This document shows, in pieces, positions 3,204-18,469 of a stretch of DNA of 64,000 nucleotides. How positions within the stretch are numbered: position 1 is the first letter of the stretch; every line of letters starts with the position of its first letter. The notes beneath the pieces were generated by a model, which did not search any database, was not told the origin of the DNA, and saw nothing but the letters and a program-made list of their open reading frames with translations. Origin of the DNA: Mailhella massiliensis (GTDB lineage: Bacteria > Desulfobacterota > Desulfovibrionia > Desulfovibrionales > Desulfovibrionaceae). The translations under genes were made by a program, and so were the position numbers. The DNA lies in NCBI RefSeq assembly GCF_900155525.1, contig NZ_LT706952.1, forward strand, positions 1,066,624 to 1,130,623. The letters run 5' to 3'.

Positions 3204-3246
3204 AAAAAAGCCCCGGATTCCGCGATACGGCGGAATGTCCGGGGCC
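3204..3246 (-). terminator. Terminator of the enoate-reductase/aldolase operon
   Basis: Read on the minus strand, GGCCCCGGACATTCCGCC pairs with GCGGAATCCGGGGC and is followed by six T residues. It lies 82 nt beyond the aldolase stop and closes the long minus-strand operon before the EamA gene starts. Confidence 0.85.
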
Positions 3247-3327
3247 CGTAGGTACGGCCCGCCCGACGCCGGAGCAGTATGGCGTGGGGCGGACCGACCG
3301 CGCCTGGTTCTTTCGCCGGGCCGCAGA

Positions 3328-4086
3328 TCAGGACTGCAGCATGTCCCGCACCGCCTTGACCAGGAACGCGGTATCCGTGCCTACGGCCGCGCCCTGATAC
3401 CCGCGGGCGAAGCAGTCCCTGGCTTCGGCCATGGTGTTGGCGTAAATGAAGGCCAGCTTGCCGTGTTCGCGGCAGGCCGCAAGTATTCTCTCAAGAGCTG
3501 CGCGGAACTCGGTGGTGGAGAACTTTGCCGGAGCGCCGAGCGCCACGGAAAGATCGTACGGCCCCACGAAAATGCCGTCCACGCCCTCCAGAGCCGCGAT
3601 TTCTTCGATATGTTCCAGCGCTCCCGCCGTTTCGCACTGAGGCATAAGCAGGGCGCGGCGGTTCACGGTCTCAAAATAGCCGCCGAGGTTCTTGAGCTCC
3701 GGCGAAAAACCGTACTTCGCGCTGCGGGAAAAGGCGAAGCCGCGTTCGCCCATGGGGAAGTACTTGGCGTAGCGCACGAGATCGCGCACTTCCTCCACCG
3801 AGCGCACATCGGGAATGATGATGCCCCGCGCACCCAGATCCAGGGCATGGAGCACCGCCGCGCGGGAGCTGTCGCGCACGCGCACGAAGGGTTCCGCGCC
3901 GTGCAGCTGCAGAGCGCGGATCATCTCTCCGGCGCTTTCCTCGGAAAAGGGACCGTGCTCCGTATCGATGATGACGTAATCAAGCCCGGAAAGGCCGAGA
4001 CACTCGGCCACGATGGCCCCGCCCAGATGGCAGAAGGTGCCGACCACTCCCTGCCCGGCGTTCAGTTTTTCATCGAAAGCGCTCAT
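3328..4086 (-). CDS. HpcH/HpaI-family aldolase (2-keto-acid aldolase type)
   Basis: The 252-residue protein matches class II (metal-dependent) pyruvate aldolases of the HpcH/HpaI/RhmA family, which cleave 4-hydroxy-2-oxo acids to pyruvate plus an aldehyde. Family marks are DYVIIDTEHGPF near the N-terminus, the GARGIIIPDVRS strand, the metal-binding Glu in MPQCETAGALE and the Asp in FVGPYDLS. Its ATG overlaps the aminotransferase stop (ATGA), so the two are translationally coupled; it is the last gene of the operon. The natural substrate is unknown. Its position after a transaminase suggests that an amino acid is converted to the 2-oxo acid and then cleaved, which is inference. Confidence 0.88.
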   Translation of the reverse strand: MSAFDEKLNAGQGVVGTFCHLGGAIVAECLGLSGLDYVIIDTEHGPFSEESAGEMIRALQLHGAEPFVRVRDSSRAAVLHALDLGARGIIIPDVRSVEEVRDLVRYAKYFPMGERGFAFSRSAKYGFSPELKNLGGYFETVNRRALLMPQCETAGALEHIEEIAALEGVDGIFVGPYDLSVALGAPAKFSTTEFRAALERILAACREHGKLAFIYANTMAEARDCFARGYQGAAVGTDTAFLVKAVRDMLQS

Positions 4087-5267
4087 GCCTTCACCCTCTT
4101 TTCCAGCACCTCGCGCATGAGCGAGACGGCGAGCTTGAGGTTGTCCATGGAATTGGCGTAGGACACGCGCACGAAATCCCTGCCCATGGGGCCGAACACA
4201 TGACCGGGAGTCATGGAAACGCCGGCCTCGTCGATCATGACGCGGCAGAATTCATCGCCGCTCATGCCCGTTCCCGTGATGTTCACGAAGATATAGAACG
4301 CGCCGTCGGGCCGCAGGCAGGAACAGCCGGGCAGGGTGTTGAGCGCATCCACCATGTAGTTTCTGCGTTTCTCGTACTCTTCCACCATGGCGCGGGAAGG
4401 CGCGTCGTCTTCCAGAAGCGCGGTGAGCGCCGCATACTGGATGAACGTGCAGGGGCAGGAAAGGTTGTAGAAGTTCAGACGCATCATGGGATCCATGAGG
4501 GAACGGTCGCAGAGCATGTAGCCTATGCGCCAGCCGGTCATGGCGAAATACTTGGAGAAGCCGTGCAGCACGATGAGGCGTTCCTTCAGCTCGGGCAGGG
4601 AGGCGGCGCTGCAGTATTTCTTGCCGCCGTACACCATGTCGGCGTACACCTCGTCGGAAATCACCAGCAGGTTGTGACGGCGGGCGATGTCGGCCACGAC
4701 CCTGAGGGATTTCTCATTCAGCACGGAACCGCAGGGATTGGAGGGAGAATTGAGCAGTATGGCCTTGGTGTTCGGCGTAACCAGGGCCTCCATGGCCTCG
4801 GCCTCGATCTGAAAATCGCCCGATTCCCTGAGTTCGTAGGAAACGGCCTTCGCGCCCGTGATGTTGGGAAGCGTGAAGTAGCAGAGATACCCGGGATCAG
4901 GCACGAGTATCTCGTCGCCCGGGTTGAGGTAGGCGTTCATGGCAAGGAAAACGCCCTGCTCCACACCCACCGTGATCATGACTTCGTCGGCCTCGTAGGC
5001 AGAGCCGTACAGCCGGTTGTAGCGGCGGGCCACGGCCGCGCGCAGATCGGCAATGCCCGTCACCGGGCCGTAATGCACCTTGCCCTCGTCCAGAGCCTTC
5101 TTGCAGGCTTCCACGATGTGGGGCGGAGTGTCGACGTCAGGCTCTCCTATTTCCAGATGAATGATGCGTTTGCCCGCGGCTTCGAGGCTGCCCGCATAGG
5201 CGATGATCTCGCGGATCTTGGAAAGAGGAGCGTGCTCCATTCTATGTGCCTGGGGAATAAGAGACAT
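4083..5267 (-). CDS. PLP-dependent aminotransferase, class I/II
   Basis: The 394-residue protein is a fold-type I aminotransferase of the aspartate-aminotransferase superfamily. Visible landmarks are NSPSNPCGSV, SDEVYADMVYGG, the PLP-binding Lys in GFSKYFAMTGWRIGY, and the C-terminal RVSYANSMDNL carrying the carboxylate-binding Arg. The ATG at 5267 is chosen over a GTG at 5273 because AAGGAA stands 6 nt upstream of it. It is followed with a 4-nt overlap by the HpcH-type aldolase and preceded, after a 73-nt gap holding a hairpin, by the broken enoate reductase. The amino-acid specificity is not readable from sequence. Confidence 0.92.
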   Translation of the reverse strand: MSLIPQAHRMEHAPLSKIREIIAYAGSLEAAGKRIIHLEIGEPDVDTPPHIVEACKKALDEGKVHYGPVTGIADLRAAVARRYNRLYGSAYEADEVMITVGVEQGVFLAMNAYLNPGDEILVPDPGYLCYFTLPNITGAKAVSYELRESGDFQIEAEAMEALVTPNTKAILLNSPSNPCGSVLNEKSLRVVADIARRHNLLVISDEVYADMVYGGKKYCSAASLPELKERLIVLHGFSKYFAMTGWRIGYMLCDRSLMDPMMRLNFYNLSCPCTFIQYAALTALLEDDAPSRAMVEEYEKRRNYMVDALNTLPGCSCLRPDGAFYIFVNITGTGMSGDEFCRVMIDEAGVSMTPGHVFGPMGRDFVRVSYANSMDNLKLAVSLMREVLEKRVKA

Positions 5268-5288
5268 ATGCACTTCCTTATGATTCGG

Positions 5289-5316
5289 GCGGGACGGAAC
5301 CCTCGCTCCGTCCCGC
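5289..5316 (-). other. Intergenic hairpin between enoate reductase and aminotransferase genes
   Basis: A perfect 10-bp stem (GCGGGACGGA/TCCGTCCCGC) with an 8-nt loop lies in the 67-nt gap. There is no T tract, so it is more likely an mRNA-stability or processing element than a terminator. Confidence 0.45.
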
Positions 5317-5340
5317 CGTTGCAGAATTCATCCGTCGGGA

Positions 5341-7289
5341 TCAGAGGCTCAGCGCGGCGTCGTACGCGTCGTGCACGGCATCGAAGATCTTGCCCGTCTT
5401 CGTGCAGTCGCCCGCGGCAAGGAAGGTCATCCCCTCCCGGGCAAGCTGCGCGCACAGCTCCTTGTCGGGGTTGTAGCCCACGGCGAGCACCACGGAATCG
5501 AAGGCGGGCAGTTCGAACACATTGCCGTAGCCGTCCTTCACGCTGACGACGCCGTCGGCGGACACTCCGGCAAGGGCATGGTCCGTCAGGGCCTTCACGC
5601 CGCATTTCTTCAGTTCTTCCAGCAGGAAGAAGCGGCCGTGCTTTTCCATATCGGGGGCAAGGGCGTCCCGAAGTTCGACAATGCTCACCTCGCAGCCCTT
5701 TTCCGCCAGAAACGCGGCGCATTCGCAGCCTACGAGACCGCCGCCGAGAACCAGCACGCGATGCCCGGCATCGGCGCCCTCAAGCACGGCCTCGGCATGT
5801 ATCAGACGGCCCTTTCCCTCCCGGGGGGCATCCTTCAGGAAGCCGGGGAAAATGGGGCTGCCGCCCGTGGCCACGAACACCACATCGTACCCTTCGGCCT
5901 TCAGCATGTCCGCCGTGGCGCGCACGCCGGTCTTCACGGTCACGCCGCAGGCGGCAAGGCTCCCTTCAAACCACTTCGCGGCATCGGCGATCAGGGACTT
6001 GCCCGGAGGCAGAGAGGCCGGAGTCAGCTTGCCGGAAAGCGTGCCGTGCTGTTCGTAAAGGGTGACGGCATGGCCGAGGGAAGATGCCGTGCGGGCAAAT
6101 TCCATGCCGGCAGGCCCGCTTCCCACCACGGCGACCTTCTTTTTCGACGCGGCGACGGGCTTCGGAAAGCCTTCCCTGCCCACTTCGGGATTGAGCGCGC
6201 AGCTCATGAGGGGCTGCTTGCAGCAGCCTTCGCAGCAGTAGATGCAGGGGCGCACGGTTTCATCCCTGCCTTCCATCAGCTTGCGGGGAAGTCCGGGGTC
6301 GGCAATGAGGGCGCGGCCCATGCACACCATGTCCACGCCGCCGGGGGCGAGCAGAGCCTCCGCCACATCGCGCCGTCCTATGCGGGCGGCCACGGCCAGA
6401 CGCATGTCCGGCCCCACCACGCTGCGCGACGCATGTCCGGCCCCACCACGCTGCGCACGGCGCGGGCACGGTCCCCGTTGAATCCCGCGGGGAGCGCGGC
6501 AGGAGACTCGATGTACCAGGTATTGGTGCAGGTACCGCTGCTCACGTTGAAAAGATCCACGCCCGCCGCGCATATTTCCTTCGCTATGCGGCAGCCGAGA
6601 TCCAGAGTGACGCCGCCGGGAAGAAATTCCTCCACGCTGCAGCGGAAGGAGACGGGGAAATCCGGTCCCACGGCCTTGCGGACGGAACGGATGACTTCCA
6701 GAGGGAAGCGCATACGGCGTTCGAAATCCCCGCCGTAGGCGTCTTCACGCCGGTTGGTCAGCGGAGAAAGGAACTGCCCGATGAGATAGCCGTGCGCGCC
6801 GTGTATTTCCACGATGTCGAACCCGGCCTCCACGGCTCTTCTTGCGGCTTCGCCCCAGGCGACCACAAGCTCATGAATCTCTTCCTCGTCGAGCACGCGG
6901 GAATCGGATGCCGGCGTCATGCCGGGAACAAAGGAAACAAGCGGCACCGGCCCGCCCGAAACGGCGGGAACGGTGTGCAGGCCGCCGTGGTTGAGCTGTA
7001 CGCCCGCCTTGCCTCCGGCCGCATGTATGGCGGATGCGAACCTCGCAAGTCCCCGGATGTAACGGTCGTCGTACAGGCTGAGCCCGGCTTCGAAGCAGAT
7101 GCCCGAAGGATGAACGCAGGTCGCTTCAAGCATGTTCAGCCCCACGCCGCCGCGGGCGCGGGCGACATGGTAGTTCATGAGCTGATCGCTCATTTCTCCA
7201 CCGCTGGCGGCAAAACGCGTCAGCATGGACGGAAAGATGATGCGGTTTTTGAATTCCGTCTTGTTGATGGTGACAGGCGAAAACAGCAT
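5341..7289 (-). pseudogene. NADH:flavin oxidoreductase/2-enoate reductase family, frameshifted by a 29-bp tandem duplication
   Basis: Two reading frames together make one full-length (about 640 aa) Old-yellow-enzyme-type Fe-S flavoenzyme. The upstream frame (7289 to 6378) gives the FMN barrel, with EIHGAHGYLIGQFLSPLTNRR. The downstream frame (in register from about 6456 to 5341) gives LIADPGLPRKL, the Fe-S site CIYCCEGCCKQPLMSCALN, and the FAD and NAD domains VVGSGPAGMEFA and VLGGGLVGCECA. The frames part exactly at two identical, directly adjacent 29-bp units (6399-6427 and 6428-6456). Removing one unit restores GPDMRLAVAARIGRRD. As it stands the protein stops soon after the repeat at about 303 residues, without the Fe-S and FAD modules. 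A paralog encoded at 8300-10246 is intact. GAGGT precedes the ATG. Confidence 0.9.
6399..6456. repeat. Perfect 29-bp tandem duplication (2 copies)
   Basis: Two identical 29-bp units lie head to tail inside the enoate reductase gene. Because 29 is not a multiple of three, the duplication shifts the frame. One copy gives a continuous enzyme and two copies a truncated one. It may be a recent replication slip, a reversible on/off switch or an assembly error. Confidence 0.95.
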
Positions 7290-7344
7290 GGATACCTCGG
7301 TCTGGAAAAGGCGCGCCTCTCAGGCGAATGCGCGCGGTGAAGGG

Positions 7345-7373
7345 AAAAGGGGGCCGCCCTTCGGACGGCCCCG
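7345..7373 (-). terminator. Possible terminator/attenuator after the amidohydrolase gene
   Basis: On the minus strand GGGGCCGTCC..GGGCGGCCCC is followed by CTTTTCCC, just after the amidohydrolase stop and 60 nt before the next start. The short T run suggests partial termination within the operon. Confidence 0.5.
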
Positions 7374-7378
7374 TCGGA

Positions 7379-8227
7379 TCAGTCCATGTCGAGCCCGAGG
7401 ACCCCGGCCATGTTCCGGTACAGGACGTTGGGCAGCACGTCTTCACGGAACGGCATCTCCAGGAAGAGATCCACCGCCTGCTTGAGCGGAATGTAGGGAT
7501 AGCCGCTGCCGAACAGGAATCTGTTCTTCAGAAAACCGTTGGCGGCCACGACGTAATCCTGCACGCCGGGCATGTTGTACATGTACATGTCGGGGGCAAG
7601 GTACATGTTGGGATGGCACATGCAGCTGAACAGCACCTGAGGAATCCAGGGATAGGAACCGTGCATGTTCACGATGGTGAGGTGCGGAAAATCGCGGCAC
7701 ACTCTGTCGATATGCTCGGGGTTGCTGAAGGAGAGGTCCGGGCCGTTGCCGCCCCCGCCCATGAGGAACATGGGAATGCCGTGTTCCATGCAGTACTGAT
7801 AGATGGGATAGAGGCGCGCATCGTCCACATACATGGGGATGTCGCCGCATCCGGGTTCCATGCCCGCGCCGCGGAGATTGCCGTTGACCACGGTGCGCTC
7901 TATTTCCGCCAGGGCGGCGGCGGGATTGCTGCCGTCCACACCGGCCACGCCGACGAAGCGGCCGGGCTGTTCCTTCACGATGGCCATGAGGTCGTCGTTG
8001 GAAACGTGACCCATGTCGGGGCTCTGGCGGCCGGTCATCACGCCCAGCGTCACGCCCGCTTCGTCCATTTCCTTATACAGCAGCCCGGCATCGCGCTGTT
8101 CGGCGGCGGGCGAAAGCTTCATGAGGAAGTTGTCGCTCCAGGCCTGGGTTTTCTTCGGGTCGCGGTAAAGGTTGCAGCGAAGATAGTCCTTAAGCGGAGG
8201 ACGAAGGCGCGCGTCGATGATTTTCAT
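7379..8227 (-). CDS. Amidohydrolase-fold protein (amidohydrolase-2 family) lacking canonical metal ligands
   Basis: The 282-residue product has the TIM-barrel layout of the amidohydrolase-2 (ACMSD-like) family, with typical strands around GRFVGVAGVDG, LTIVNMHGSYPWI and a C-terminal FLFGSGYPYIPLKQ. Catalytic members start with DxHxH and carry LFGSDxP. Here the N-terminus reads IDARLRPP and the late motif FGSGYP, so the first His pair and the catalytic Asp are both replaced. Either it is a different metal-site subgroup or it is not a hydrolase. The start at 8227 is taken because AGGAGTC stands 5-8 nt upstream; a longer frame upstream has no such site. It lies between the two enoate-reductase genes and was probably recruited to the same pathway. 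Confidence 0.8.
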   Translation of the reverse strand: MKIIDARLRPPLKDYLRCNLYRDPKKTQAWSDNFLMKLSPAAEQRDAGLLYKEMDEAGVTLGVMTGRQSPDMGHVSNDDLMAIVKEQPGRFVGVAGVDGSNPAAALAEIERTVVNGNLRGAGMEPGCGDIPMYVDDARLYPIYQYCMEHGIPMFLMGGGGNGPDLSFSNPEHIDRVCRDFPHLTIVNMHGSYPWIPQVLFSCMCHPNMYLAPDMYMYNMPGVQDYVVAANGFLKNRFLFGSGYPYIPLKQAVDLFLEMPFREDVLPNVLYRNMAGVLGLDMD

Positions 8228-8299
8228 AAAGACTCCTGAATCATGGGCGGCCGCAGAGGCCGCGTTTGCGTTGCAAGAAAAATTCCGCACGGTGCCGGA

Positions 8300-10246
8300 T
8301 CAGAGCGTACGACCGGCTTCCGCCCCCTGGCGTATGGCCTTCACATAGTCGCTGGGAGCGTCGGCGTCGCCCACGATGAGCACCGGCACGCCGAGCTCTT
8401 CCAGCGCGGCGGCAAGGCTCCGGTTCGGGCGTGCGCCCACGGCCATGACCACGGTGTCGATGTTTTCCAGCACCTCTTCCGCGCCGTTGCGGACGAAGCG
8501 GACGCAGTGATCGCCGACGGAGGTCACCCGGCTGCCGGCAAGGCAGTGCATATCCAGGGAATCGCCGAAAATATGCAGCAGGCAGATACGGGAATCCTGC
8601 GGCAGATCGAGTCCGATGCCGTCGCGCATTTCCAGAATGTAGACTTCGCGCTGCTGCTGTTCCAGAAGAAGATGCGCGGTTTCCGCGCCCACGGAACCGC
8701 CGCCGATGACGGCGACTCTGCGCCCCACGCAGGCCTTTCCTTCCAGCACTTCATCCACAGGCACCACGAAATCCTGATTCACCCCCTCCACAGGAGGCAC
8801 GAAGGGGACGCTGCCCGTGGCGAGCACCACGGCGTCGGGCTTCCAGGCCTTCACGTCCTCCACGGTTACCGTATGGGCGAGACGTACTTCCACGGGAAGC
8901 TTGCGTACTTCCCTTTCCAGATAGTCGCAGGCTTCCCCGTAGCGGTCCTTGTGCGGGGGAACGGCCGCCAGACGAAGACGCCCGCCGAGCCTGTCGCGCT
9001 CATCCCACAGGGAAACCGTATGACCGCGGCGTGCGGCGTCGGCCGCCGCCTGCATACCCGCAGGGCCGCCGCCGATGACCATGACGCGGCGCGGCGTTTC
9101 CGCCGCCTTCAGGGCAAAATGTTCGTCCTGCTCGCGCCCGGTCATGACGTTGAGCGCGCACTTCACGCTGCGGTCGCCGGAGGAACGGTCGTGGCAGCCC
9201 TTGTTGCAGGCGATGCACCAGATGATGTCGTCCACCCGGTTCTCGCGCAGCTTGTTGGGATAATCGGGGTCGGCGATGAGGGTCCGGCCTATGCACACCA
9301 CATCGGCCTTGCCCTTTTCCAGCACGGAAAGCTGGATTTCCGGACGGTCCAGCTGGCCTGCGGCGAAAACGGGAATATGTACCGCGTCGCGGATGTTTTC
9401 CGCAAGGTAAAGATTGACGCCGTGCCGGTGATACATGTTGGAAACCGTGCGCACGAAGGGGAACATGCCCGCCGAAACGCTCAGAGCCGCCACGCCGAGT
9501 TTTTCCAGATAGCGGGCGATTTCCACGGCAAGGGCCATGTCTATGCCGCCTTCGCGCAGCTCGTCGCCCACGATGCGGCAGGTAATGGGGTACTTGTCTC
9601 CCACGAGTTCGCGGCTGCGGCGGATGATTTCCGTCACGAAGCGCATACGCCCGAGGAAGGAGCCGCCGTATTCGTCCGTGCGCCTGTTGGTCAGGGGCGA
9701 CATGAAGGAGCTGATGAGATACCCGTGGGCGCAGTGCAGTTCGCACATGTCGAAACCGGCTTCCTTCGCGCGGCGTACGCCCTGGGCGTAGCATTCCACC
9801 ATTTCCCGCACTTCTTCGGTGCTCATGACGTGAGGCACGTCGTATTCGGCCTGGAACCCGGCCACGGCCTCGGGCTCGAACGGCGAGGGGGCTACGGGCT
9901 GATAGCCGGACGTGCGCCTGTTGGTTTCGCGCCCGGAGTGATGAATCTGCGCGGCCGCAAGGCAGCCGTGCCTGTGCATGGCCTCGGTGAGACGGCGAAG
10001 ACCCGCGATGCGGTCGTCGTTTTCAATGAAGAGCTGACCGCCGAAATTCCCGTCGGGGCGAACGCATACGGAACCGACGATGATCATCGCCACGCCGCCG
10101 GCCGCACGCCTTTCGATGAAGGCGACCTCCTTGTCCGTCACGCCGCCGTCTTCCGTCATATGAACGGACATAGGGGCCATGACGAAACGGTTCTTCAGTG
10201 TAAGCGGCCCTATGTCAACGGGCTGAAACAAAGGCGAGACATTCAT
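8300..10246 (-). CDS. NADH:flavin oxidoreductase/2-enoate reductase family Fe-S flavoprotein
   Basis: This 648-residue protein has the order FMN-binding TIM barrel (residues 1 to about 350), a 4Fe-4S site (CIACNKGC followed by a later Cys in VKCALN), then FAD (VIGGGPAGMQAA) and NAD(P)H (VIGGGSVGAETA) domains. That is the architecture of clostridial 2-enoate reductase, dienoyl-CoA reductase and related enzymes that reduce activated C=C bonds in the cytoplasm. ELHCAHGYLISSFMSPLTNRR carries the substrate-end His/Tyr region. MNVSPLFQPV is preferred as start because the barrel begins there; the frame extends 19 codons upstream. It is an intact paralog of the broken gene at 5341-7289 and belongs to the TAXI transporter operon. 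The substrate is unknown. Confidence 0.9.
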   Translation of the reverse strand: MNVSPLFQPVDIGPLTLKNRFVMAPMSVHMTEDGGVTDKEVAFIERRAAGGVAMIIVGSVCVRPDGNFGGQLFIENDDRIAGLRRLTEAMHRHGCLAAAQIHHSGRETNRRTSGYQPVAPSPFEPEAVAGFQAEYDVPHVMSTEEVREMVECYAQGVRRAKEAGFDMCELHCAHGYLISSFMSPLTNRRTDEYGGSFLGRMRFVTEIIRRSRELVGDKYPITCRIVGDELREGGIDMALAVEIARYLEKLGVAALSVSAGMFPFVRTVSNMYHRHGVNLYLAENIRDAVHIPVFAAGQLDRPEIQLSVLEKGKADVVCIGRTLIADPDYPNKLRENRVDDIIWCIACNKGCHDRSSGDRSVKCALNVMTGREQDEHFALKAAETPRRVMVIGGGPAGMQAAADAARRGHTVSLWDERDRLGGRLRLAAVPPHKDRYGEACDYLEREVRKLPVEVRLAHTVTVEDVKAWKPDAVVLATGSVPFVPPVEGVNQDFVVPVDEVLEGKACVGRRVAVIGGGSVGAETAHLLLEQQQREVYILEMRDGIGLDLPQDSRICLLHIFGDSLDMHCLAGSRVTSVGDHCVRFVRNGAEEVLENIDTVVMAVGARPNRSLAAALEELGVPVLIVGDADAPSDYVKAIRQGAEAGRTL

Positions 10247-10286
10247 GGAACTACCCTCAATAATAGGAAAAAAGGAAAAAAGAAGA

Positions 10287-10367
10287 CCGGAATACCCGTA
10301 CATTCCGGCCCTTCCTCCTGTCGGGAATTTCCCGTCAGGAGGGAAGGCCGGGGGCCTGAGCCCCCGG
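10287..10367 (-). promoter_or_regulatory. Three tandem hairpins after the TAXI binding-protein gene
   Basis: Just beyond the binding-protein stop on the minus strand are an 8-bp GC hairpin (10348-10367), a long near-perfect stem (about 10307-10349, arms of about 20 nt) and a 7-bp hairpin (10287-10308). They are followed by a pyrimidine-rich run of Ts. The set can act as a leaky terminator or 3' stabiliser that makes binding protein more abundant than the downstream enzymes. Confidence 0.6.
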
Positions 10368-10392
10368 GTAAAAACACGCGCAACCTTCCGGT

Positions 10393-11370
10393 CTACTTCA
10401 AAAAGCCCTTTTCGCGATAGTACTTTTCAGCACCGGGATGCAGGGGGAAGACGTTGTCCTTCCAAGCGATGGCGGGATCGATGGACACCCAGGAGGGGTT
10501 GGCGCGGGCAATGTCTTCCTTGCCTTCTACGATGGCCTTGGTCAGATTGTAAGCCGTGTCTTCACTCATATTGTCACGGACGAAGATAACATTGGTGTCC
10601 CAAAAAGTGGTTATGTTCTCACCGACCGCCCCTTTATAAAAGTTGGCCGGAAGTGTACCGACATGAATACCCATATTGGCCGCAACCCTATTGGCTATTT
10701 CAGGTTCGACTGACAGGAACTTAAGAGGTGTGCTACCGGAAATATCCACAATGAACCAGGCTTCACCGGGTCCGATCCACGCAAACACGTCCACCTGCCC
10801 GTCCTTGACCATGTTGGCGATGTCGTCGAAGCTGTTGGTCACAATCATACCGCCGTTGGATCGGATGTCGTCATAGGTGATGCCATATTCCTTCAGAATC
10901 TGACGGAAAATCTTATCGGTAGAACCGCCGGTAGACCCCACGCCGATGGTCAGGTTCTTCATTGTCTTAAGATCTCTGAGACTCTTTACGGGAGAATCAA
11001 CAGGCGTCACGATCTGGTAGTTGATGCGGTCCTGAAGATTGATGATGGTGGCAAGTCCCTTACCCGGGGCGCGATAGGGATCGGTACCGTTCCTGAATGC
11101 CGTCAGGATGCTGTTTTCCGCAACGCCGAGGTCGGCGGCGCGGGAGGCCACGCGCGGAGGATTGGTCGCGCCGCCGCCGGGCAGCATGGTCACGTCCGTT
11201 CCGGGATTCATGGTGGTGTACACCTTGCCTATGGCTCCCATCCCGATGTACCAGGTACCGCTGGGGTTGGCGGCGGAAACGATGCGGAGCGATTCCGAAG
11301 CCTGGGCAGACAACGATGCTGCAACAATCAGCGTTACTGTCAGCAGAACTTTTTTAAGAATCCAGTTCAT
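10393..11370 (-). CDS. TAXI-family TRAP transporter solute-binding protein
   Basis: The 325-residue precursor starts with a signal peptide (NWILKKVLLTVTLIVAASLSAQA) and continues with ESLRIVSAANPSGTWYIGMGAIG and PGGGATNPPRVASRAADLGVAENS, the pattern of TAXI (TRAP-associated extracytoplasmic immunogenic) binding proteins. It should work in the periplasm and hand its ligand to the fused permease encoded 11 nt upstream. The second of two closely spaced ATGs (11370) is used because AAGGAG is 7 nt from it. Known TAXI ligands include glutamate and C4/C5 dicarboxylates; the ligand here is unknown but is presumably the substrate of the downstream reductases. Its base composition is visibly lower in GC than the flanking genes. 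Confidence 0.92.
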   Translation of the reverse strand: MNWILKKVLLTVTLIVAASLSAQASESLRIVSAANPSGTWYIGMGAIGKVYTTMNPGTDVTMLPGGGATNPPRVASRAADLGVAENSILTAFRNGTDPYRAPGKGLATIINLQDRINYQIVTPVDSPVKSLRDLKTMKNLTIGVGSTGGSTDKIFRQILKEYGITYDDIRSNGGMIVTNSFDDIANMVKDGQVDVFAWIGPGEAWFIVDISGSTPLKFLSVEPEIANRVAANMGIHVGTLPANFYKGAVGENITTFWDTNVIFVRDNMSEDTAYNLTKAIVEGKEDIARANPSWVSIDPAIAWKDNVFPLHPGAEKYYREKGFLK

Positions 11371-11381
11371 ACACATACTCC

Positions 11382-13277
11382 TTAAGATAAGGGGGGATAC
11401 GCTGCAGCATTATCGGCCTTGCGACGGAAATACTGCAAAACATAAACTACGAGGATGAAAATCAGACCACACAGGTCGGTCTTAATCCCAGGATACAAAA
11501 GCAAGATACCGCCTGATATAAGAAGAAAACGTTCCAGAGGCTTACAGAGCGTCAAGAGATAGCCCTGCATGCCGCCTGCCAGAGAAATGACACCTATGAC
11601 GGCCGTGATGACAGCTTGGACGACTTCAGGAATGGAACCGTTAAGAAGCAGAGCCGGTTCAAACACGAACATGAACGGAATGATGTACGCCACAATCCCG
11701 AGCCGAAAGGCTCGGAGACCTGTGACCATAGCGTTTGCTTTTGCTATGGAAGCTCCTGCATAGGCCGATAGACACACAGGAGGTGTGATCTCGGAAAGAA
11801 TGGCGTAGTAGAGCACGAAGAGGTGGGCGGCCAGGGTAGGGATGCCGAGCTTCATGAGGGCGGGAGCGCCGAGAGTGGCCACGATGATGTAGGCCGGGGT
11901 GGCAGGAACCCCCATGCCGAGCACAAAGCAGGTAACCATAAGCAGTACAAGCAGAAACAGGATGTTAATGCTGCCGAGGTCAGTGATAAGGCTGATGAAT
12001 TTGTAGCCGATGCCCGTGATGGAGACCATGGCGACGATGATACCGGCACAGGCGCTGCATGTGGAAATCATAAGCGCACTCTTGGAAGAGGCTTCAAGCG
12101 TTTCGAGGAGCTTGCGCAACGTAAACTGGGTGGACTTGCTGAAGCATGCGAGGATCAGCACCGACAGGGTGGCGAGATAGGCCGAGGAAATAACACTGCG
12201 CCCAGAAATAAGCAGGAAAATGAGAACAAAGATGGGCAGAATGTGATACAAGCGCTTGTACACGCTCTTCACATCGGGTACTTCATCTTCTGGCATGACA
12301 CCGAGATTATATCTGATGGCCTCGAAATGAATCATCATGTACAAAGAGAAATAGTACAGAAGGGAAGGCAGCAGCGCAGCCACAGCCACGGCGTTGTAAC
12401 CGGCGCCCGTCACGTCGGCCATGACGAAGGCCGTTGCGCCCATGACCGGAGGCATGAGCTGGCCGCCCGTGGAGGCTACAGCTTCCACCGCGCCTGCAAA
12501 GGAGGGGCTGTAGCCCACACGCTTCATGAGCGGAATGGTGAAGGTGCCGGTGCTGTACACGTTGGCCACGGCGGAACCGGAAATGGAACCGAAAAGCGCG
12601 GAAGCGAAGATGGACACCTTGGCCGGGCCGCCCTTGGAACGGCGGGTGGCCACACAGGCGAGATCGAGGAATACCTGCCCCAGTCCGGCGTTCTGAAGAA
12701 AGCAGCCGAACATGACGAAGGCGAAGATCATGGTGGAGGACACGGCAAGCGGAATGCCGTACAGGCCTTCCGTCACCAGGTAGAGCTGCTCGCAGAGCAT
12801 CTTGTAGGAAACGCCGTCGTGCCGCAGTATGCCGGGCAGGTACTGGCCCCACATGCCGTAGGCCAGAAAGCAGCCGGACACCACCACAAGGGGCACGCCC
12901 GCCACGCGGCGGGTGGCTTCCAGCACCAGAACCACGGCCACCGTGGAGGCCACGGCCTCCACATCGGTCACGGGATCGATGTAGCGGATGCGCTCAAGGT
13001 AGTAGTCGATGTCGGAAACCAGAAAATACGCCGACCAGAACGCCCCGCAGATGAGCACAAGGTCCAGCAGCAGCCACAGGGGGTTCTCCTTCTGCCCCTC
13101 CGCCACCTTCTTCGGAGGGAAGTACATGAATACCAGCGTCAGCACCGTGCCAAGGTGAATGACACGAAGCATCTGGGAATCCATCACTCCGAAACCGGCG
13201 GTAAAATAAATCTGAAAAATGGCCAGCCCTATGGCCAGAACCGTGGCGACGGGTTTCAATGTTTCTCGTGAGATCAT
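11382..13277 (-). CDS. TAXI-type TRAP transporter permease (fused 4TM/12TM)
   Basis: This 631-residue integral membrane protein combines the small and large TRAP permease subunits, as usual for TAXI systems. Signature stretches are GSISGSAVANVYSTGTFTIPLMKRVGY and STGGQLMPPVMGATAFVMADVTG, which belong to the DctM-like domain. It imports its substrate with sodium, using the binding protein encoded just downstream. GAGGAA precedes the ATG. It is the first gene behind the sigma-54 promoter at 13433-13446. The 5' part (12.35-13.28 kb) is GC-rich like the rest of the window, but the 3' part is clearly AT-richer, a break inside a single gene. Confidence 0.93.
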   Translation of the reverse strand: MISRETLKPVATVLAIGLAIFQIYFTAGFGVMDSQMLRVIHLGTVLTLVFMYFPPKKVAEGQKENPLWLLLDLVLICGAFWSAYFLVSDIDYYLERIRYIDPVTDVEAVASTVAVVLVLEATRRVAGVPLVVVSGCFLAYGMWGQYLPGILRHDGVSYKMLCEQLYLVTEGLYGIPLAVSSTMIFAFVMFGCFLQNAGLGQVFLDLACVATRRSKGGPAKVSIFASALFGSISGSAVANVYSTGTFTIPLMKRVGYSPSFAGAVEAVASTGGQLMPPVMGATAFVMADVTGAGYNAVAVAALLPSLLYYFSLYMMIHFEAIRYNLGVMPEDEVPDVKSVYKRLYHILPIFVLIFLLISGRSVISSAYLATLSVLILACFSKSTQFTLRKLLETLEASSKSALMISTCSACAGIIVAMVSITGIGYKFISLITDLGSINILFLLVLLMVTCFVLGMGVPATPAYIIVATLGAPALMKLGIPTLAAHLFVLYYAILSEITPPVCLSAYAGASIAKANAMVTGLRAFRLGIVAYIIPFMFVFEPALLLNGSIPEVVQAVITAVIGVISLAGGMQGYLLTLCKPLERFLLISGGILLLYPGIKTDLCGLIFILVVYVLQYFRRKADNAAAYPPLS

Positions 13278-13432
13278 ACGTTCCTCATCAAGCCCGGCCT
13301 TTCCGCATGGACCCCGGGCGGTACGATTTTACTCACCACACTGCGGGGCAGGGGGAGCAGCTCAACCGGGCCGCACGCCTTTTTCTCATGACCTCATCGA
13401 AAACGACGTACTGAAAACCCGTTTACGTTTTT

Positions 13433-13446
13433 GCAAAAATCATGCC
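13433..13446 (-). promoter_or_regulatory. Sigma-54 (RpoN) promoter of the TAXI/enoate-reductase operon
   Basis: On the minus strand the sequence reads TTGGCATGATTTTTGCAA: the -24 GG (13446-13445) and -12 GC (13434-13433) are separated by exactly 10 nt, as sigma-54 promoters require. Transcription would start near 13421, leaving a leader of about 145 nt before the permease ATG. An enhancer-binding activator is encoded divergently next door, which strongly supports the call. Confidence 0.8.
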
Positions 13447-13486
13447 AAAATGTACTTTTAAGCACATTGTCTCTAACAGGCTGATA

Positions 13487-13501
13487 TTCCGGTATCCTGC
13501 C
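13487..13501. repeat. Direct repeat copy 1 in the divergent control region
   Basis: TTCCGGTATCCTGCC matches 14 of 15 positions of the copy at 13771-13785, which overlaps the activator promoter. The pair could be secondary binding sites or chance. Confidence 0.35.
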
Positions 13502-13540
13502 TCCTTTTCCGCTTCTCCTGCGGCTCCTGATATGCACGCT

Positions 13541-13572
13541 AATCAAACATGTCCGATACAACATGTTTGATT
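13541..13572. promoter_or_regulatory. Upstream activating sequence: perfect 12-bp inverted repeat
   Basis: AATCAAACATGT and ACATGTTTGATT are exact reverse complements with an 8-nt spacer. The palindrome is centred about 110 bp upstream of the -24 element, the usual distance for an enhancer bound by a sigma-54 activator dimer. The Fis-type helix-turn-helix of the neighbouring activator is the obvious candidate ligand. Confidence 0.75.
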
Positions 13573-13753
13573 TTCATACACTAAAAAATTTTCCCATTTT
13601 TTACAAAAATACCGATAAGTTCAACTCCATTTTCTCCGCCGTTTCCGCAAATTGCCGGACATCGGAAAAAATTTCTTCTCGAAAAGATGTGCAAACCTGC
13701 TCCCATTTCGCCCCAAAACAAAACATTTCAGGAAAAATCCCGGCAAATATGTA

Positions 13754-13782
13754 TTGATATCATACATCTCTTCCGGTATTCT
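13754..13782 (+). promoter_or_regulatory. Sigma-70 promoter of the enhancer-binding activator gene
   Basis: TTGATA (13754-13759), 17 nt, TATTCT (13777-13782). The -10 overlaps the second direct-repeat copy (13771-13785), so autoregulation is possible. Confidence 0.55.
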
Positions 13783-13900
13783 GCCAGAATATCAGGGAAA
13801 TTCCCCGCCTTCCCCCAGCGTTTTCCCCTCCCTCATCCGCCGGGATTTTTCCGGCGATCATTCCCGGGTGCCTGCCGTGAACAAAACCTTTCCTCCCTCC

Positions 13901-15802
13901 ATGGTTGACAAAAACAGCATAAAAAAGCAGTGGGAAGCCTTTCAGCAGGGAAAGGACGTCGACTTTTCCGTCATCAGCAGGGGCGTGTACGATTCCTGGG
14001 TGCGTTCAAGGCAGTACCATGTGGACCCCTATCATAAGAAAAGGGAGTTCGTCCCGCCCCAGCAGCTCCAGGAACTTCTTGAAAACAATAGTGAATTCAT
14101 CAACAGCGCCTCCACCATCATGAGCCGGCTGTTCAAGTCCATCGACATGCTGAACGGCACCATCACGCTGGCGGACAAGAACGGCGTGGTCCTGTATTCC
14201 TGCTATCAGAACCGCCACGACATCGCTCCTTCCCATGTGGTGGGCGACATTCTTTCCGAACAGGTCTGCGGTACCAACGGCATCGGCACCTGCCTTGCCG
14301 AAGGCTCCTCCGTGGAGCTTGTGGGAGCGGAACACTACAGTCTGGAGGAACACGCCTGGTACTGTTCCGCCGCGCCGGTGTACGACGACAGGGCCAACGT
14401 CATCGGGGTGTTCAACATCTCCATTCCCTGTGAGAGCCACCACTACTATCAGACGAGCGGACTGGTGGAGGCCGTGGCCCACGCCATTACGGAACAGATA
14501 TTCCTGAGCGATCTTCTCAGCGAGCAGGTGGCCATCATGGACGCGCTGGATGAAGGCGTGGTGGTGCTGAACGCCGACGGCGTCATCAAATCCATCAACA
14601 GGAAGGCCTGTTCCCTGCTCAAGCTCACCAGCGCCCCGGAGGGACAGAACTTCCGCCGCATTTTCCATACGCAGGACAATCTGTTCTCGGAACTTGCCCA
14701 GAACACGCCCTTCCATCACAGGGAAGTCACCTTTCTCAACGGCATACGAAGCATTTCCTGTCTGCTTTCCTTTTCGCCCATTCCCGGCAGGGGAAGCGTG
14801 CTCACCCTTCAGGAGAACCGACAGATACGGGAACTGGCCTCCCGCGCCATAGGCGCGAAGGCCGTGTATACCTTCGACCGTATTCTGGGGGAATCCAGGG
14901 CCATACAGCAGGCCATACGCATGGGGAAAAACGCCGCGCAGAGCGACATCACCACGCTCATTCTGGGAGATTCCGGCACGGGCAAGGAACTGTTCGCCCA
15001 GTCCATACACAACGCGAGCGCCCGCAGGCGCGGGCCCTTCATCGTGGTCAACTGCGGGGCCATTCCGCGCAACCTCGTGCAGTCGGAACTGTTCGGCTAC
15101 AACGAAGGCGCCTTTACCGGCGCCGTGAAACAGGGAAAGCCGGGCAAGTTCGAACTGGCGGACGGCGGTACCATCTTTCTGGATGAAATCGGGGAAATGC
15201 CGCTGGAGGCGCAGGTCAGCCTGCTGCGCCTGCTGCAGAACGGCGAAGTCACCCGTGTGGGCGGCAAGAAGTCCACCTATGTGAACGTGCGGGTCATCGC
15301 CGCCACCAACCGGAACCTTCAGGATGCCGTGGCGCAGAATATTTTCCGCAAGGACCTGTATTACCGGCTCAACGCCTTCGTCATCCACATTCCCAACCTT
15401 ACGGAACGCGAGGGCGACATTCGCCTTCTGGCGGAAGCCTTTCTGGAAAAATTCTCCGCGGGACTCAACAAGCGCCTCACCGGCTTCGACGACGATGTTC
15501 TCGCCGCCCTGAACCTGTACAGCTGGCCCGGCAACGTGCGGGAACTGGAAAACTGCACCGAACGGGCGGTGGCCGTGGCGGAACACGGGCGCATCACGCT
15601 GGCGGATCTGCCCTCGCACATCGCCGCCCTCGCCATGGACGGCTTTCCGGTACGCGGCAAGCTGCGCGACAGCGAAAGGGAAACCATACGGGCCACCCTG
15701 CAGGAAAACCAGTGGAACATCCGCCGCACGGCGGCCGTGCTGGGCGTGGCGAGAAGCACGCTGTACCTGAAAATAAAAAAGTTCAACATCGTCCGGGACT
15801 GA
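13901..15802 (+). CDS. Sigma-54-dependent transcriptional activator, AcoR-like (GAF-PAS-AAA+-Fis)
   Basis: The roughly 633-residue protein has an AcoR-like sensory GAF region (about residues 50-200, with [16 protein letters not shown]), a PAS-like segment ([26 protein letters not shown]), an AAA+ motor and a C-terminal Fis-type HTH ([23 protein letters not shown]). The motor keeps Walker A GDSGTGKE near 356, the sigma-54 contact loop GAFTGA near 403, and [12 protein letters not shown]. The start is uncertain: ATG 13901 is used, with an in-frame GTG at 13877 and longer options upstream, none with a good ribosome site. It is divergent from the TAXI operon, whose sigma-54 promoter and palindromic enhancer lie between. 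It is very likely the inducer-sensing regulator of that operon. Confidence 0.93.
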
Positions 15803-16678: not shown

Positions 16679-17125
16679 AGCCAACCTCCGCTTCTCTCCA
16701 TTTCCCCATTTTCTACGACGGGGACGCCCCGCATGTAAAGTCTGCGACATGTCTTTGCCGTTTCCTCCCCCCGGAAAACACGGCGAGACTCCGCCGTGCG
16801 CCGGGCCGCCCCTGCCCCTGCCTTTCCGCTTCCGCCTTCTTCCGAAAACATCATATCAACAAAATTGTTTATCTCATGCGCCGCACGACCCTGCCCGGAA
16901 CAAAGTAAAAAACTCTGCGGAAAAACAGCGTCCCCGATAAAAAATTACTCTTTTTTCCGCGCCAGTATATTTTTCTTGCCATGTATTATTTTTCGATGCT
17001 ATCAACAGAAATGTTTAATAAGAGCCCGGTCCCTTCCGCAGGGCGAGCGCCGTACACGTCCGGCCTTTCCGGCGGCGGATCTGCTTGAAAAGGAACGTTC
17101 CCGAACGGGGCGAGGAGATTGCGAC
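16679..17125. promoter_or_regulatory. Divergent intergenic region upstream of TauE and symporter genes
   Basis: 447 nt without a convincing gene, AT-rich in the middle. A plausible plus-strand promoter is TTGCCA (16976-16981), 18 nt, TATCAA (17000-17005), followed by a roughly 115-nt leader to the symporter ATG. No known riboswitch class could be recognised. Confidence 0.4.
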
Positions 17126-18469
17126 ATGGAAGAATTCTCCCGTTTTATCAAAGTGCTGGACGGATATGTCTGGGGACCCGTCATGATGGCCCTCATTCTC
17201 GGCACGGGTCTCTACCTCACCTTCGGCCTGAAATTCCTTCCTTGGACGCGTCTCGGCGCAGGCTTCCGCCTCATGTGGAAGGGCCGCACCAAGAATGAAG
17301 GCGTTCACGGAGAACTTTCCCCCTTCCAGGCGCTGATGACGGCCCTTGCCGCCACCGTGGGCGTGGGGAACATCGCAGGCGTGGCCACGGCCATTTTCAC
17401 CGGCGGTCCGGGAGCGCTGTTCTGGATGTGGTGCACCGCCATGGTGGGCATGGCCACCAAGTACGCGGAAACCGTGCTCGCCCAGAAATACCGCGAAGTC
17501 ACCCCCGGCGGCCATGTGGTGGGCGGCCCCATGTACTACATTAAAAACGGTCTGGGCAGAAAATGGGCATGGCTCGGTACGCTCTTCGCCCTTTTCGGCG
17601 GCATCTGCGGCTTCGGCATCGGCAACATGACGCAGTCCCATTCCATCGCGGACGCGCTGCACGCCTCCTTCGGCGTTCCGCCCGCCGTTTCGGCGGTACT
17701 TCTGTTCATCCTCATCGCCGTGGTCATTCTCGGCGGCGTTTCGCGCATAGGATCGGTATCCGGCAGGCTCGTACCCTTCATGTCCCTCATCTACATCGCC
17801 TGCTCGCTCATCGTCATCATCATCCACATCGACAAGGTGCCCGGCGTGTTCGCCACCATTTTCCACGACGCCTTCACCGGCAGCGCCGCAGCGGGCGGCT
17901 TTGCGGGGTCCACCGTCATGCTCGCCCTTCAGATGGGCGTGGCCCGCGGCATCTTCTCCAACGAGGCGGGCCTCGGCTCCGCAGCCATGGCCCACGCCAC
18001 CGCCACCACCGACGACCATGTGGCCATGGGCTATGTGGGGATGCTCGGCCCCTTCATCGACACCATCATCATCTGCACCATGACGGGACTCGCCATTCTC
18101 TGTTCCGGCCTCTGGTCGGCGGAAAGCGCTCTTTCCGGCGCCCCCCTCACCGCGGCGGCCTTCGAATCCGCCCTGCCCGGCGCAGGCTCGGCCCTGGTCT
18201 CTCTCTGCCTCGCCATGTTCGCCTTCACCACCATCCTCGGCTGGTGCGTGTATTCCGAACGCTGCTGGATCTACCTTTTCGGCGACAGGGCGCTCAAGCC
18301 CTTCCGCATCATCTTCGTATGCGTGGTCCCCGTGGGCGCGCTCATGACGCTCGATCTCGTATGGGACATTGCCGACGTGCTCAATGCGCTCATGGCCGTG
18401 CCCAACCTCATCGGCCTTCTGCTGCTCAGTCCCGTCATCTTCAAACTTTCTCACGAATACGACAGGTAG
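17126..18469 (+). CDS. Alanine/glycine:cation symporter (AGCS family)
   Basis: The 447-residue membrane protein matches sodium:alanine symporters (AgcS/DagA type). Visible family marks are FQALMTALAATVGVGNIAGVATAI, GGPGALFWMWCTAMVGMATKYAET, and GVARGIFSNEAGLGSAAMAHA. It imports alanine or glycine with sodium across the inner membrane. ATG 17126 is chosen because GAGGAG stands 8 nt upstream and the next residues (EEFSRFIKVLDGYVWGP) begin like family N-termini; the open frame extends 110 codons further upstream but that part is not family-like. It may feed amino acids to fermentation or nitrogen metabolism. Confidence 0.93.
   Translation: MEEFSRFIKVLDGYVWGPVMMALILGTGLYLTFGLKFLPWTRLGAGFRLMWKGRTKNEGVHGELSPFQALMTALAATVGVGNIAGVATAIFTGGPGALFWMWCTAMVGMATKYAETVLAQKYREVTPGGHVVGGPMYYIKNGLGRKWAWLGTLFALFGGICGFGIGNMTQSHSIADALHASFGVPPAVSAVLLFILIAVVILGGVSRIGSVSGRLVPFMSLIYIACSLIVIIIHIDKVPGVFATIFHDAFTGSAAAGGFAGSTVMLALQMGVARGIFSNEAGLGSAAMAHATATTDDHVAMGYVGMLGPFIDTIIICTMTGLAILCSGLWSAESALSGAPLTAAAFESALPGAGSALVSLCLAMFAFTTILGWCVYSERCWIYLFGDRALKPFRIIFVCVVPVGALMTLDLVWDIADVLNALMAVPNLIGLLLLSPVIFKLSHEYDR

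Follow-up and report, generated by a model that had tools for sequence, protein, structure and literature searches.

Mailhella and its kin are linked to the conversion of gut sulfonates into sulfide, and we know of little on the other substrates that they respire or ferment. According to PMC13219744, Candidatus Mailhella probably respires isethionate. Among TAXI-type TRAP transporters, VcGluP of Vibrio cholerae has been studied at the level of its binding pocket, where glutamate is contacted by Y45, S75, Q93 and E125, the affinity falling most severely when Y45 or Q93 is lost; a TAXI transporter for ortho-phthalate is also mentioned in that report (PMC11574862). Here we analysed a 64,000-nucleotide stretch of the genome of Mailhella massiliensis, hereafter the window (contig C28, 1066624-1130623; genome of 3.47 Mb in 28 contigs, 99.4% complete, labelled G000), which carries a gene cluster for a TAXI-type transporter, Fe-S ene-reductases (OYE-A and OYE-B), an amidohydrolase-fold protein (AMH), an aminotransferase, an aldolase and an exporter. 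The cluster is probably an inducible organic-acid degradation locus, whose unusual part is the AMH at its centre, a member of an expanded family that lacks the usual metal site. More specifically, we read it, with a probability of about 45%, as an inducible pathway that imports, reduces and cleaves an unsaturated organic acid (the import-reduce-cleave reading). The structural genes are given below in order of transcription, followed by the activator gene and the control elements.

13277-11382, minus strand: TAXI-type TRAP fused permease, 631 amino acids (TIGR02123, 652.4 bits against a cut-off of 320.65)
11376-10393, minus strand: TAXI solute-binding protein, 327 amino acids (TIGR02122, 138.6 bits against a cut-off of 84.35)
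10246-8300, minus strand: OYE-A, Fe-S/FMN/FAD ene-reductase, 648 amino acids from the ATG at 10246, open reading frame (ORF) open from 10303 (Oxidored_FMN and Pyr_redox_2; HCAHGY and a Cys motif)
8227-7379, minus strand: AMH, amidohydrolase-fold protein, 282 amino acids, with IDARLRP replacing DxHxH (PF04909, 6.4e-29; 3IRS, E 1e-77)
7289-5341, minus strand: OYE-B, second Fe-S ene-reductase, frameshifted (two ORFs, 7289-6378 and 6573-5341)
5273-4083, minus strand: class I/II aminotransferase, 396 amino acids, overlapping the aldolase gene by 4 bp (PF00155, 6.2e-72)
4086-3328, minus strand: HpcH/HpaI-type aldolase, 252 amino acids (PF03328, 9e-34, 117.1 bits against a gathering score of 25)
3164-2238, minus strand: EamA exporter (PF00892)
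13901-15802, plus strand: divergent sigma-54 activator, ORF open from 13652 (Sigma54_activat, 1.7e-69; HTH_8, 3.4e-11)
13447-13432, minus strand: sigma-54 -24/-12 element TGGCATGATTTTTGCA, 0 mismatches
13541-13572: palindrome and putative activator site, AATCAAACATGT-N8-ACATGTTTGATT, with 12-nt perfect arms

In the proposed pathway, the activator would sense the substrate or an intermediate and fire the -24/-12 promoter, and the TAXI transporter would import a small acid, one that probably bears two or more negative groups. OYE-A, together with OYE-B where intact, would use NAD(P)H to reduce C=C bonds adjacent to a carbonyl or carboxylate, a step that would also dispose of electrons. The reduced product would then be converted by hydration, lactone opening or decarboxylation on AMH, which lacks the usual metal site and would act through its invariant Arg and His residues. 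This would yield a 2-oxo acid, from which the aldolase and the aminotransferase would make pyruvate, an aldehyde and an amino acid; an end product would leave through EamA. We favour this reading because the gene order recurs in three relatives (loci L034, L035 and L037) with variants in two more (L036 and L094), because all genes are under purifying selection and the sigma-54 site and palindrome are recognisable in L035, and because OYE genes lie near AMH genes while a control family of aminotransferases does not. It is further favoured by the retention of aminotransferase, aldolase and EamA in L094 while the rest differ, by the HxxHxY motif in both reductases together with a TAXI pocket unlike that for glutamate, and by the invariant D5, R7, R9, P10, R67 and H189 of AMH, whose fold is nearest to 3IRS and then to metal-dependent decarboxylases and LigJ. 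What the sequence and its comparison support directly is the gene set and its conservation, the control elements of sigma-54 type, and the repeated proximity of RxR-type AMH genes to Fe-S ene-reductase genes.

The closest relatives of the AMH gene in named genomes were found in Mailhella metagenome-assembled genomes (L denotes a locus and G a genome of a relative): L034 of G190 (96%), L037 of G181 (84%) and L035 of G177 (83%), all of the same genus as the window genome. L036 of G010 (85%), from an uncultured Desulfovibrionaceae bacterium, belongs to the same family, and two distant AMH loci (L038 and L039, 23% identical) were excluded from the comparison. ORFs of the compared loci were chosen by codon score; several proteins picked without it gave no Pfam match and may be wrong frames in this GC-rich DNA. 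The full order from activator through permease, binding protein, OYE-A, AMH, OYE-B, aminotransferase and aldolase to EamA is kept in L034 and L035, with the fused permease 87% and 84% identical, respectively. The 3.3-kb contig of L037 holds AMH, OYE-B and part of the aminotransferase gene. L036, of another genus, carries the activator, a different OYE, OYE-A (69%), AMH (85%) and the aldolase (77%); transporter and aminotransferase are absent between those genes, and the contig stops about 0.2 kb past the aldolase. In L094, from the one-contig genome G192, a divergent LysR regulator gene is followed by genes for an OYE, a permease, a binding protein, an AMH, an OYE and an AMH (33-57% identical to the window), and further downstream by EamA (56%), aminotransferase (81%) and aldolase (72%). 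Aminotransferase, aldolase and EamA are thus retained in G192, whereas its transporter, reductases and AMH are different.

An aldolase match at E <= 1e-50 was obtained in 6 of the 288 genomes of the family, the window genome included (G000, G177, G190, G192, G010 and G170); G181 is not among them because its contig is cut before the aldolase position. The 6.4-kb contig of G170 (L106) carries the aldolase (52%) and part of a sigma-54 activator, with no other match to the query proteins of the cluster. By this comparison the cluster is conserved but rare. Every gene appeared to be under purifying selection against L034, with ratios of nonsynonymous to synonymous substitution rates (dN/dS) of 0.035-0.19. 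The activator gene differs from L034 with a dS of 0.05, the structural genes with 0.28-0.64, and the intergenic region is near-identical (window 13278-15802), as if the activator end of the locus had been exchanged recently.

Profile matches bore out the gene families and the common minus-strand direction proposed by the first-pass annotation, and its suggestion to search relatives for the same gene order led to complete synteny in L034 and L035, partial synteny in L037 and the variants of L036 and L094. The divergent activator that it had predicted is also there, carrying a GAFTGA loop (read in the ORF) that, with the domain matches, identifies it as sigma-54-dependent. A PAS domain exceeds its cut-off (26.6 against 22.6 bits), a GAF domain stays just under (21.6 against 22.4 bits), and the best NCBIfam match, DhaR, reaches 393.8 bits, below the cut-off of 551. 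The gene probably starts at the ATG at 13901 rather than at 13652, since similarity to L035 begins at ORF residue 76. Permease and binding protein both exceed curated cut-offs and are therefore members of the TAXI-type TRAP transporters, and OYE-A unites Oxidored_FMN, Pyr_redox_2 and the four-cysteine cluster motif of the Fe-S OYE family in one intact protein. The EamA gene is co-directional, lies behind the last hairpin and is conserved at the locus, to which it belongs.

The sigma-54 promoter and palindrome predicted ahead of the cluster are likewise present. The TGGCATGATTTTTGCA element is the sole match without mismatch in the window; with up to one mismatch, 4 matches were found against a chance expectation of 2.0, so that the motif match is weak when taken alone. 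About 100 bp separate it from the palindrome, which is the probable activator site. In L035 the counterpart of the -24/-12 element reads TGGCATGATTCTTGTA and the palindrome is kept imperfectly as AATAAAACATGT...CATGTCTGATT, both being recognisable although most of the intergenic DNA has diverged. The control region of L034 is uninformative because it is near-identical over its whole length, and no counterpart of either element was found in the control region of L036. These features suggest that the locus is probably inducible and under sigma-54 control. Three hairpins bear on the extent of the transcript:

10312-10283, minus strand: terminator-like hairpin between the genes for the binding protein and OYE-A (consensus scan and folding, z -1.92, T-rich tail)
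7372-7350, minus strand: terminator-like hairpin between the AMH and OYE-B genes (consensus scan and folding, z -2.32, T-rich tail)
3262-3195, minus strand: terminator hairpin between the aldolase and EamA genes (-32.6 kcal/mol, z -2.88, followed by a U run; absent from the consensus-scan list)

A single unit ending at a strong terminator had been annotated. The hairpin with a U run behind the aldolase agrees with this; the two hairpins inside the unit and the co-directional EamA gene beyond it do not, and they make a single transcript doubtful. The gap between aldolase and EamA folds well in L034 (z -2.47, with no U run in the folded stretch) and weakly in L035 (z -1.31), for which reason the hairpin is not demonstrably conserved. 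A terminator scan of the window returned 24 sites against 17.0 (sd 4.3) in shuffled sequence, and single terminator calls therefore carry little weight.

The second reductase gene is broken in the window genome by the following feature:

6399-6427 / 6428-6456, minus strand: perfect 29-bp tandem duplication in OYE-B, exact head-to-tail copies, out of frame

As 29 is not a multiple of three, the frame is lost; the first ORF stops at 6378 and the remaining protein lies in a different frame. A single copy of the 29-bp unit stands at the same place in L034, L035 and L037, where the OYE-B frame is open (639, 650 and 634 amino acids, respectively). This raises the alternative that the locus in the window genome is a recently inactivated or decaying copy, in which OYE-B has been lost and the pathway no longer completes. 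The perfect frameshifting duplication, absent from all three relatives, speaks for such a decay, but the remaining genes are intact and both OYE-B halves show purifying selection against L034 (dN/dS 0.059 and 0.107; eight other genes 0.035-0.19), so that the lesion appears to be either recent or an assembly error. Identical tandem copies may also collapse again through slippage. We regard decay as unlikely, if still worth serious consideration. Unless the duplication arose in assembly, the import-reduce-cleave pathway of the window genome would lack the OYE-B step or have OYE-A take it over in part. The window holds another perfect tandem duplication at 25980-26077, of 48 bp and hence a multiple of three.

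An intact second reductase of the Fe-S OYE family is thus lacking in the window genome, which contradicts the two enoate reductases of the first-pass annotation for this genome, though not for the cluster as a type; OYE-A is intact. From the annotated sequence of import, C=C reduction, transamination and cleavage, the uptake, reduction and aldol cleavage stand as the most sensible family reading, and the annotated interpretation is partly supported. That annotation had missed the OYE-B frameshift, EamA, the family-wide nature of the AMH motif and the fact that the cluster is one of eleven regions in the genome that carry RxR-type AMH genes. Its remark that it knew no described pathway with this exact gene set agrees with our literature searches on the gene set, its host or its neighbours, which found none, several of the word combinations being too strict for this to be more than weak evidence of absence.

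AMH has the profile and barrel fold of the PF04909 amidohydrolase superfamily. Canonical metal-dependent members carry D-x-H-x-H at the place of its R-x-R, with HxH and an Asp as metal ligands; AMH has Gly at the place of the last-strand Asp and falls outside the metal-dependent amidohydrolases, including metal-dependent bile salt hydrolases and decarboxylases. The nearest solved structure is 3IRS (BB4693), with E 1e-77 over residues 1-276, and this full-length match together with the I-D-x-R-x-R-P start places AMH in the BB4693-type (RxR) subfamily. Compared with solved structures, the AlphaFold model of the window protein (mean pLDDT 95.8) gives Z 44 for 3IRS and Z about 20-22 for metal-dependent decarboxylases and the LigJ hydratase. 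In a first alignment, 35 of 37 rows have the N-terminus and all of these read I/F-D-x-R-x-R-P, some rows being repeats of one gene. A second alignment of 32 sequences has D5, R7, R9, P10, R67, P170, H189, N207, P244 and N272 as invariant columns. By pattern, R-x-R was found in 69 of 74 distinct AMH ORFs of the compared loci, which is no unbiased survey because the ORFs were picked by similarity to the window AMH. Among the five others, L062 and L052 have R-x-R behind an overlong ORF start, L063 is cut by a contig end, L089 reads CDFRLRP, and L078 (27% identical) lacks R-x-R. The non-canonical amidohydrolase-fold protein of the earlier annotation was therefore confirmed, its odd motif being a family-wide trait. 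That Arg takes the place of the metal ligands points to an anionic substrate and to a reaction that does without the usual metal. The metal-dependent bile salt hydrolase of Desulfovibrionaceae (PMC13081902) was considered for AMH and ruled out; it is a secreted metalloenzyme, and AMH has no metal ligands.

To narrow the substrate, we compared the TAXI pocket with that of VcGluP. All four VcGluP contacts are changed in the window binding protein by pairwise alignment (Y45W, S75G, Q93E and E125R), so that both residues taken to mark a glutamate-type TAXI protein, Y45 and Q93 of VcGluP, are absent. Glutamate is an unlikely ligand because the pocket reads W, G, E and R, with the R at the E125 place kept in L034 and L035. 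OYE-A and OYE-B both carry HxxHxY, the ene-reductase motif of YqjM-type enzymes, and a PrpD gene lies beside one AMH paralog. An unsaturated polycarboxylate is our preferred guess for the substrate, on account of the TAXI pocket, the Arg-rich start of AMH, the ene-reductase motif and this PrpD gene.

AMH genes are numerous in these genomes. The window genome has 15 strong matches (17 in total) in eleven regions; the two weak matches, one of them without the motif, were excluded from the 15. Between 15 and 26 matches were found in each of the four Mailhella genomes counted, where the AMH genes of G192, G177, G190 and, in another genus, G061 were taken as similarity matches and not each motif-checked. 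G177 (3.7 Mb) has 26 AMH and 27 OYE matches, the highest among the five genomes counted. One paralog match (G000:C18:244799-245704; L040:16800-17705) was reported with internal stops, yet L040 has an open ORF at 16839-17705, so that the stops probably fall at the match ends; the G190 counterpart (C17:37701-38615) was reported likewise. The window genome further has 12 OYE genes, the broken gene counted once, and 11 TAXI binding proteins above the cut-off.

OYE genes were found within 8 kb of an AMH gene in 8 of 12 cases in the window genome (P 2.8e-8; 5.4% of the genome qualifies), 6 of 13 in G192, 11 of 27 in G177 and 8 of 11 in G190, and 5 of the 11 TAXI binding proteins of the window genome lie equally close. 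The aminotransferase control gave 1/10 in the window genome, 1/10 in G192, 1/10 in G177, 1/9 in G190 and 0/7 in G061. These P values are rough because the 8-kb distance was set after viewing the loci, paralogs are not independent and contig ends are ignored. From the AMH side, 11 of the 15 genes of the window genome have an OYE or a glycyl-radical enzyme within 8 kb. Other AMH neighbours are MmgE/PrpD, aldehyde ferredoxin oxidoreductase, SDR, FMN reductase, MFS and DctP-type TRAP genes. Directly left of the window, L044 (G000:C28:1052000-1067500) holds another AMH, a DctP/DctM-type transporter and an OYE gene.

Glycyl-radical enzymes are the second recurrent partner: their genes lie within 8 kb of an AMH gene in 6/10 cases in the window genome, 5/6 in G192, 3/6 in G177, 3/6 in G190 and 3/4 in G061. 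The HpsG-type cut-off (NF048011) was passed by 6 of the 7 scanned (6 from the window genome, 1 from L082). In the window genome, HpsG-type enzymes with activases adjoin AMH paralogs in L043 and L046-L049; several of these loci also have a sigma-54 activator and a DctP-type TRAP transporter, and their number hints at substrates beyond 2,3-dihydroxypropane-1-sulfonate (DHPS). We therefore considered that the substrate of the present cluster might be an organosulfonate and not a plain carboxylate, and sulfonates are kept as a minority alternative because of these HpsG-type neighbours elsewhere and the likely isethionate respiration of Ca. Mailhella (PMC13219744). But the cluster has no glycyl-radical enzyme gene, and on the AMH tree the labels for a glycyl-radical partner (7 rows) and an ene-reductase partner (37 rows) separate with a single change. 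An organosulfonate is thus an improbable substrate here.

The tree comprises 82 rows, 70 of them different, with repeats through overlapping loci, and is a quick tree with long branches. Another 37 rows have neither partner in view, partly owing to short loci, one row with both was excluded from the label test, and three rows fall inside a larger branch that also holds the glycyl-radical group. The test says only that partners cluster; the single label change suggests that AMHs have specialised together with their partner. Taken further, the RxR AMH-fold proteins might be a metal-free family with an undescribed reaction that serves as an interchangeable adaptor of many anaerobic degradation modules in gut Desulfovibrionaceae. 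Each module would have its own AMH, an ene-reductase or glycyl-radical enzyme and its own transporter, modules could share one aminotransferase-aldolase-exporter tail, and, in addition to sulfonates, many unsaturated acids from the diet would serve the genus as electron acceptors. This larger picture is speculative and, as a whole, rather unlikely to hold.

The tail of the locus could also be read in the making direction: pyruvate would trap an aldehyde, and the product, once transaminated to an amino acid, would leave through EamA, for overflow or detoxification, while the reductases act on a separate substrate. EamA lies behind the aldolase in L034 (86%) and L035 (66%) and ahead of the aminotransferase in L094, adjoining one or the other in all four Mailhella loci complete on that side (window, L034, L035 and L094), and in L094 aldolase and aminotransferase accompany EamA while the transporter module differs, as this proposal would have it. 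Against it, the aldolase of L036, whose contig ends shortly past that gene, stands with OYE-A and AMH and no aminotransferase, and this ties the aldolase to the reductase branch; we give the making direction little credence. That the Fe-S flavoenzymes oxidise amines in the manner of trimethylamine dehydrogenase (TMADH) or demethylases, as part of the breakdown of an N-methyl or amino compound by the cluster, is very improbable: TMADH and histamine dehydrogenase are solved homologues and an aminotransferase is present, but both OYE proteins carry HxxHxY, NCR (318.6 bits) and 2,4-dienoyl-CoA reductase (304.6 bits) outscore TMADH (185), and the place of the flavin-linking Cys of TMADH, located by eye, is occupied by Ser in OYE-A (NRFVMAPMS) and by Leu in OYE-B (NRIIFPSML).

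Several points weigh against the import-reduce-cleave reading itself. Among the best 25 matches, no NCBIfam cut-off was reached by the reductases, the aldolase or the aminotransferase, and hence no step has an assigned substrate. OYE-B is broken in the window genome, the control-region footprint depends on one informative relative, L035, and the hairpins within the unit and before EamA may split the transcript. TAXI transporter and aminotransferase are not obligatory, as the L036 operon lacks both; AMH is not always paired with an ene-reductase, as 7 of 15 in the window genome have one within 8 kb; and in G061 only 1 of 3 OYE genes lies near an AMH (P 0.08), which gives no support alone.

If the substrate is a plant-derived unsaturated acid, its reduction would be an electron sink competing with sulfite respiration, and hence with sulfide production. 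The cluster is a tangible starting point for finding new substrates and for learning what the structural-genomics orphan BB4693/3IRS does, and the exchanged-module locus of G192 makes substrate inference by comparison practical.

Among described systems, BB4693 of Bordetella bronchiseptica (3IRS, 3K4W), a TIM-barrel protein titled uncharacterised, shares with AMH 41% identity, the fold and the R-x-R start (IDFRLRPP), and literature searches on BB4693, 3IRS and 3K4W returned no paper with a visible link to the protein. The PF04909-type 2,3- and 2,6-dihydroxybenzoate decarboxylases, ACMSD and LigJ have the same barrel (Z about 20-22); unlike these metal-dependent enzymes, AMH has R-x-R instead of H-x-H and Gly instead of the last-strand Asp. 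OYE-A has the domain order, cysteine cluster and ene-reductase motif of the Fe-S OYE family (NCR, 2,4-dienoyl-CoA reductase FadH, BaiCD and bilirubin reductase), and scores below the cut-offs of mycofactocin OYE (498.9 against 793 bits), BaiCD (463.5 against 825) and bilirubin reductase (444 against 750). The aldolase matches HpcH/HpaI class II pyruvate aldolases (YfaU, HpaI and GarL) over its full length and has D, H, R, Q, E and D, the active-site residues of the HpcH/YfaU work, at the aligned places. It stays more than 200 bits below the equivalog cut-offs of HpaI (153.4 against 368.8), GarL (135.1 against 406.75) and PRK10128 (125.8 against 441), the last a 2-keto-3-deoxy-L-rhamnonate aldolase. 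With VcGluP (PMC11574862) the window shares a TAXI binding protein and a TRAP membrane component. The sulfonate respiration genes of Bilophila and Ca. Mailhella (IslAB and HpsGH; PMC13219744) belong to the same bacterial group, and AMH paralogs adjoin HpsG-type enzymes; the present cluster has no glycyl-radical enzyme gene.

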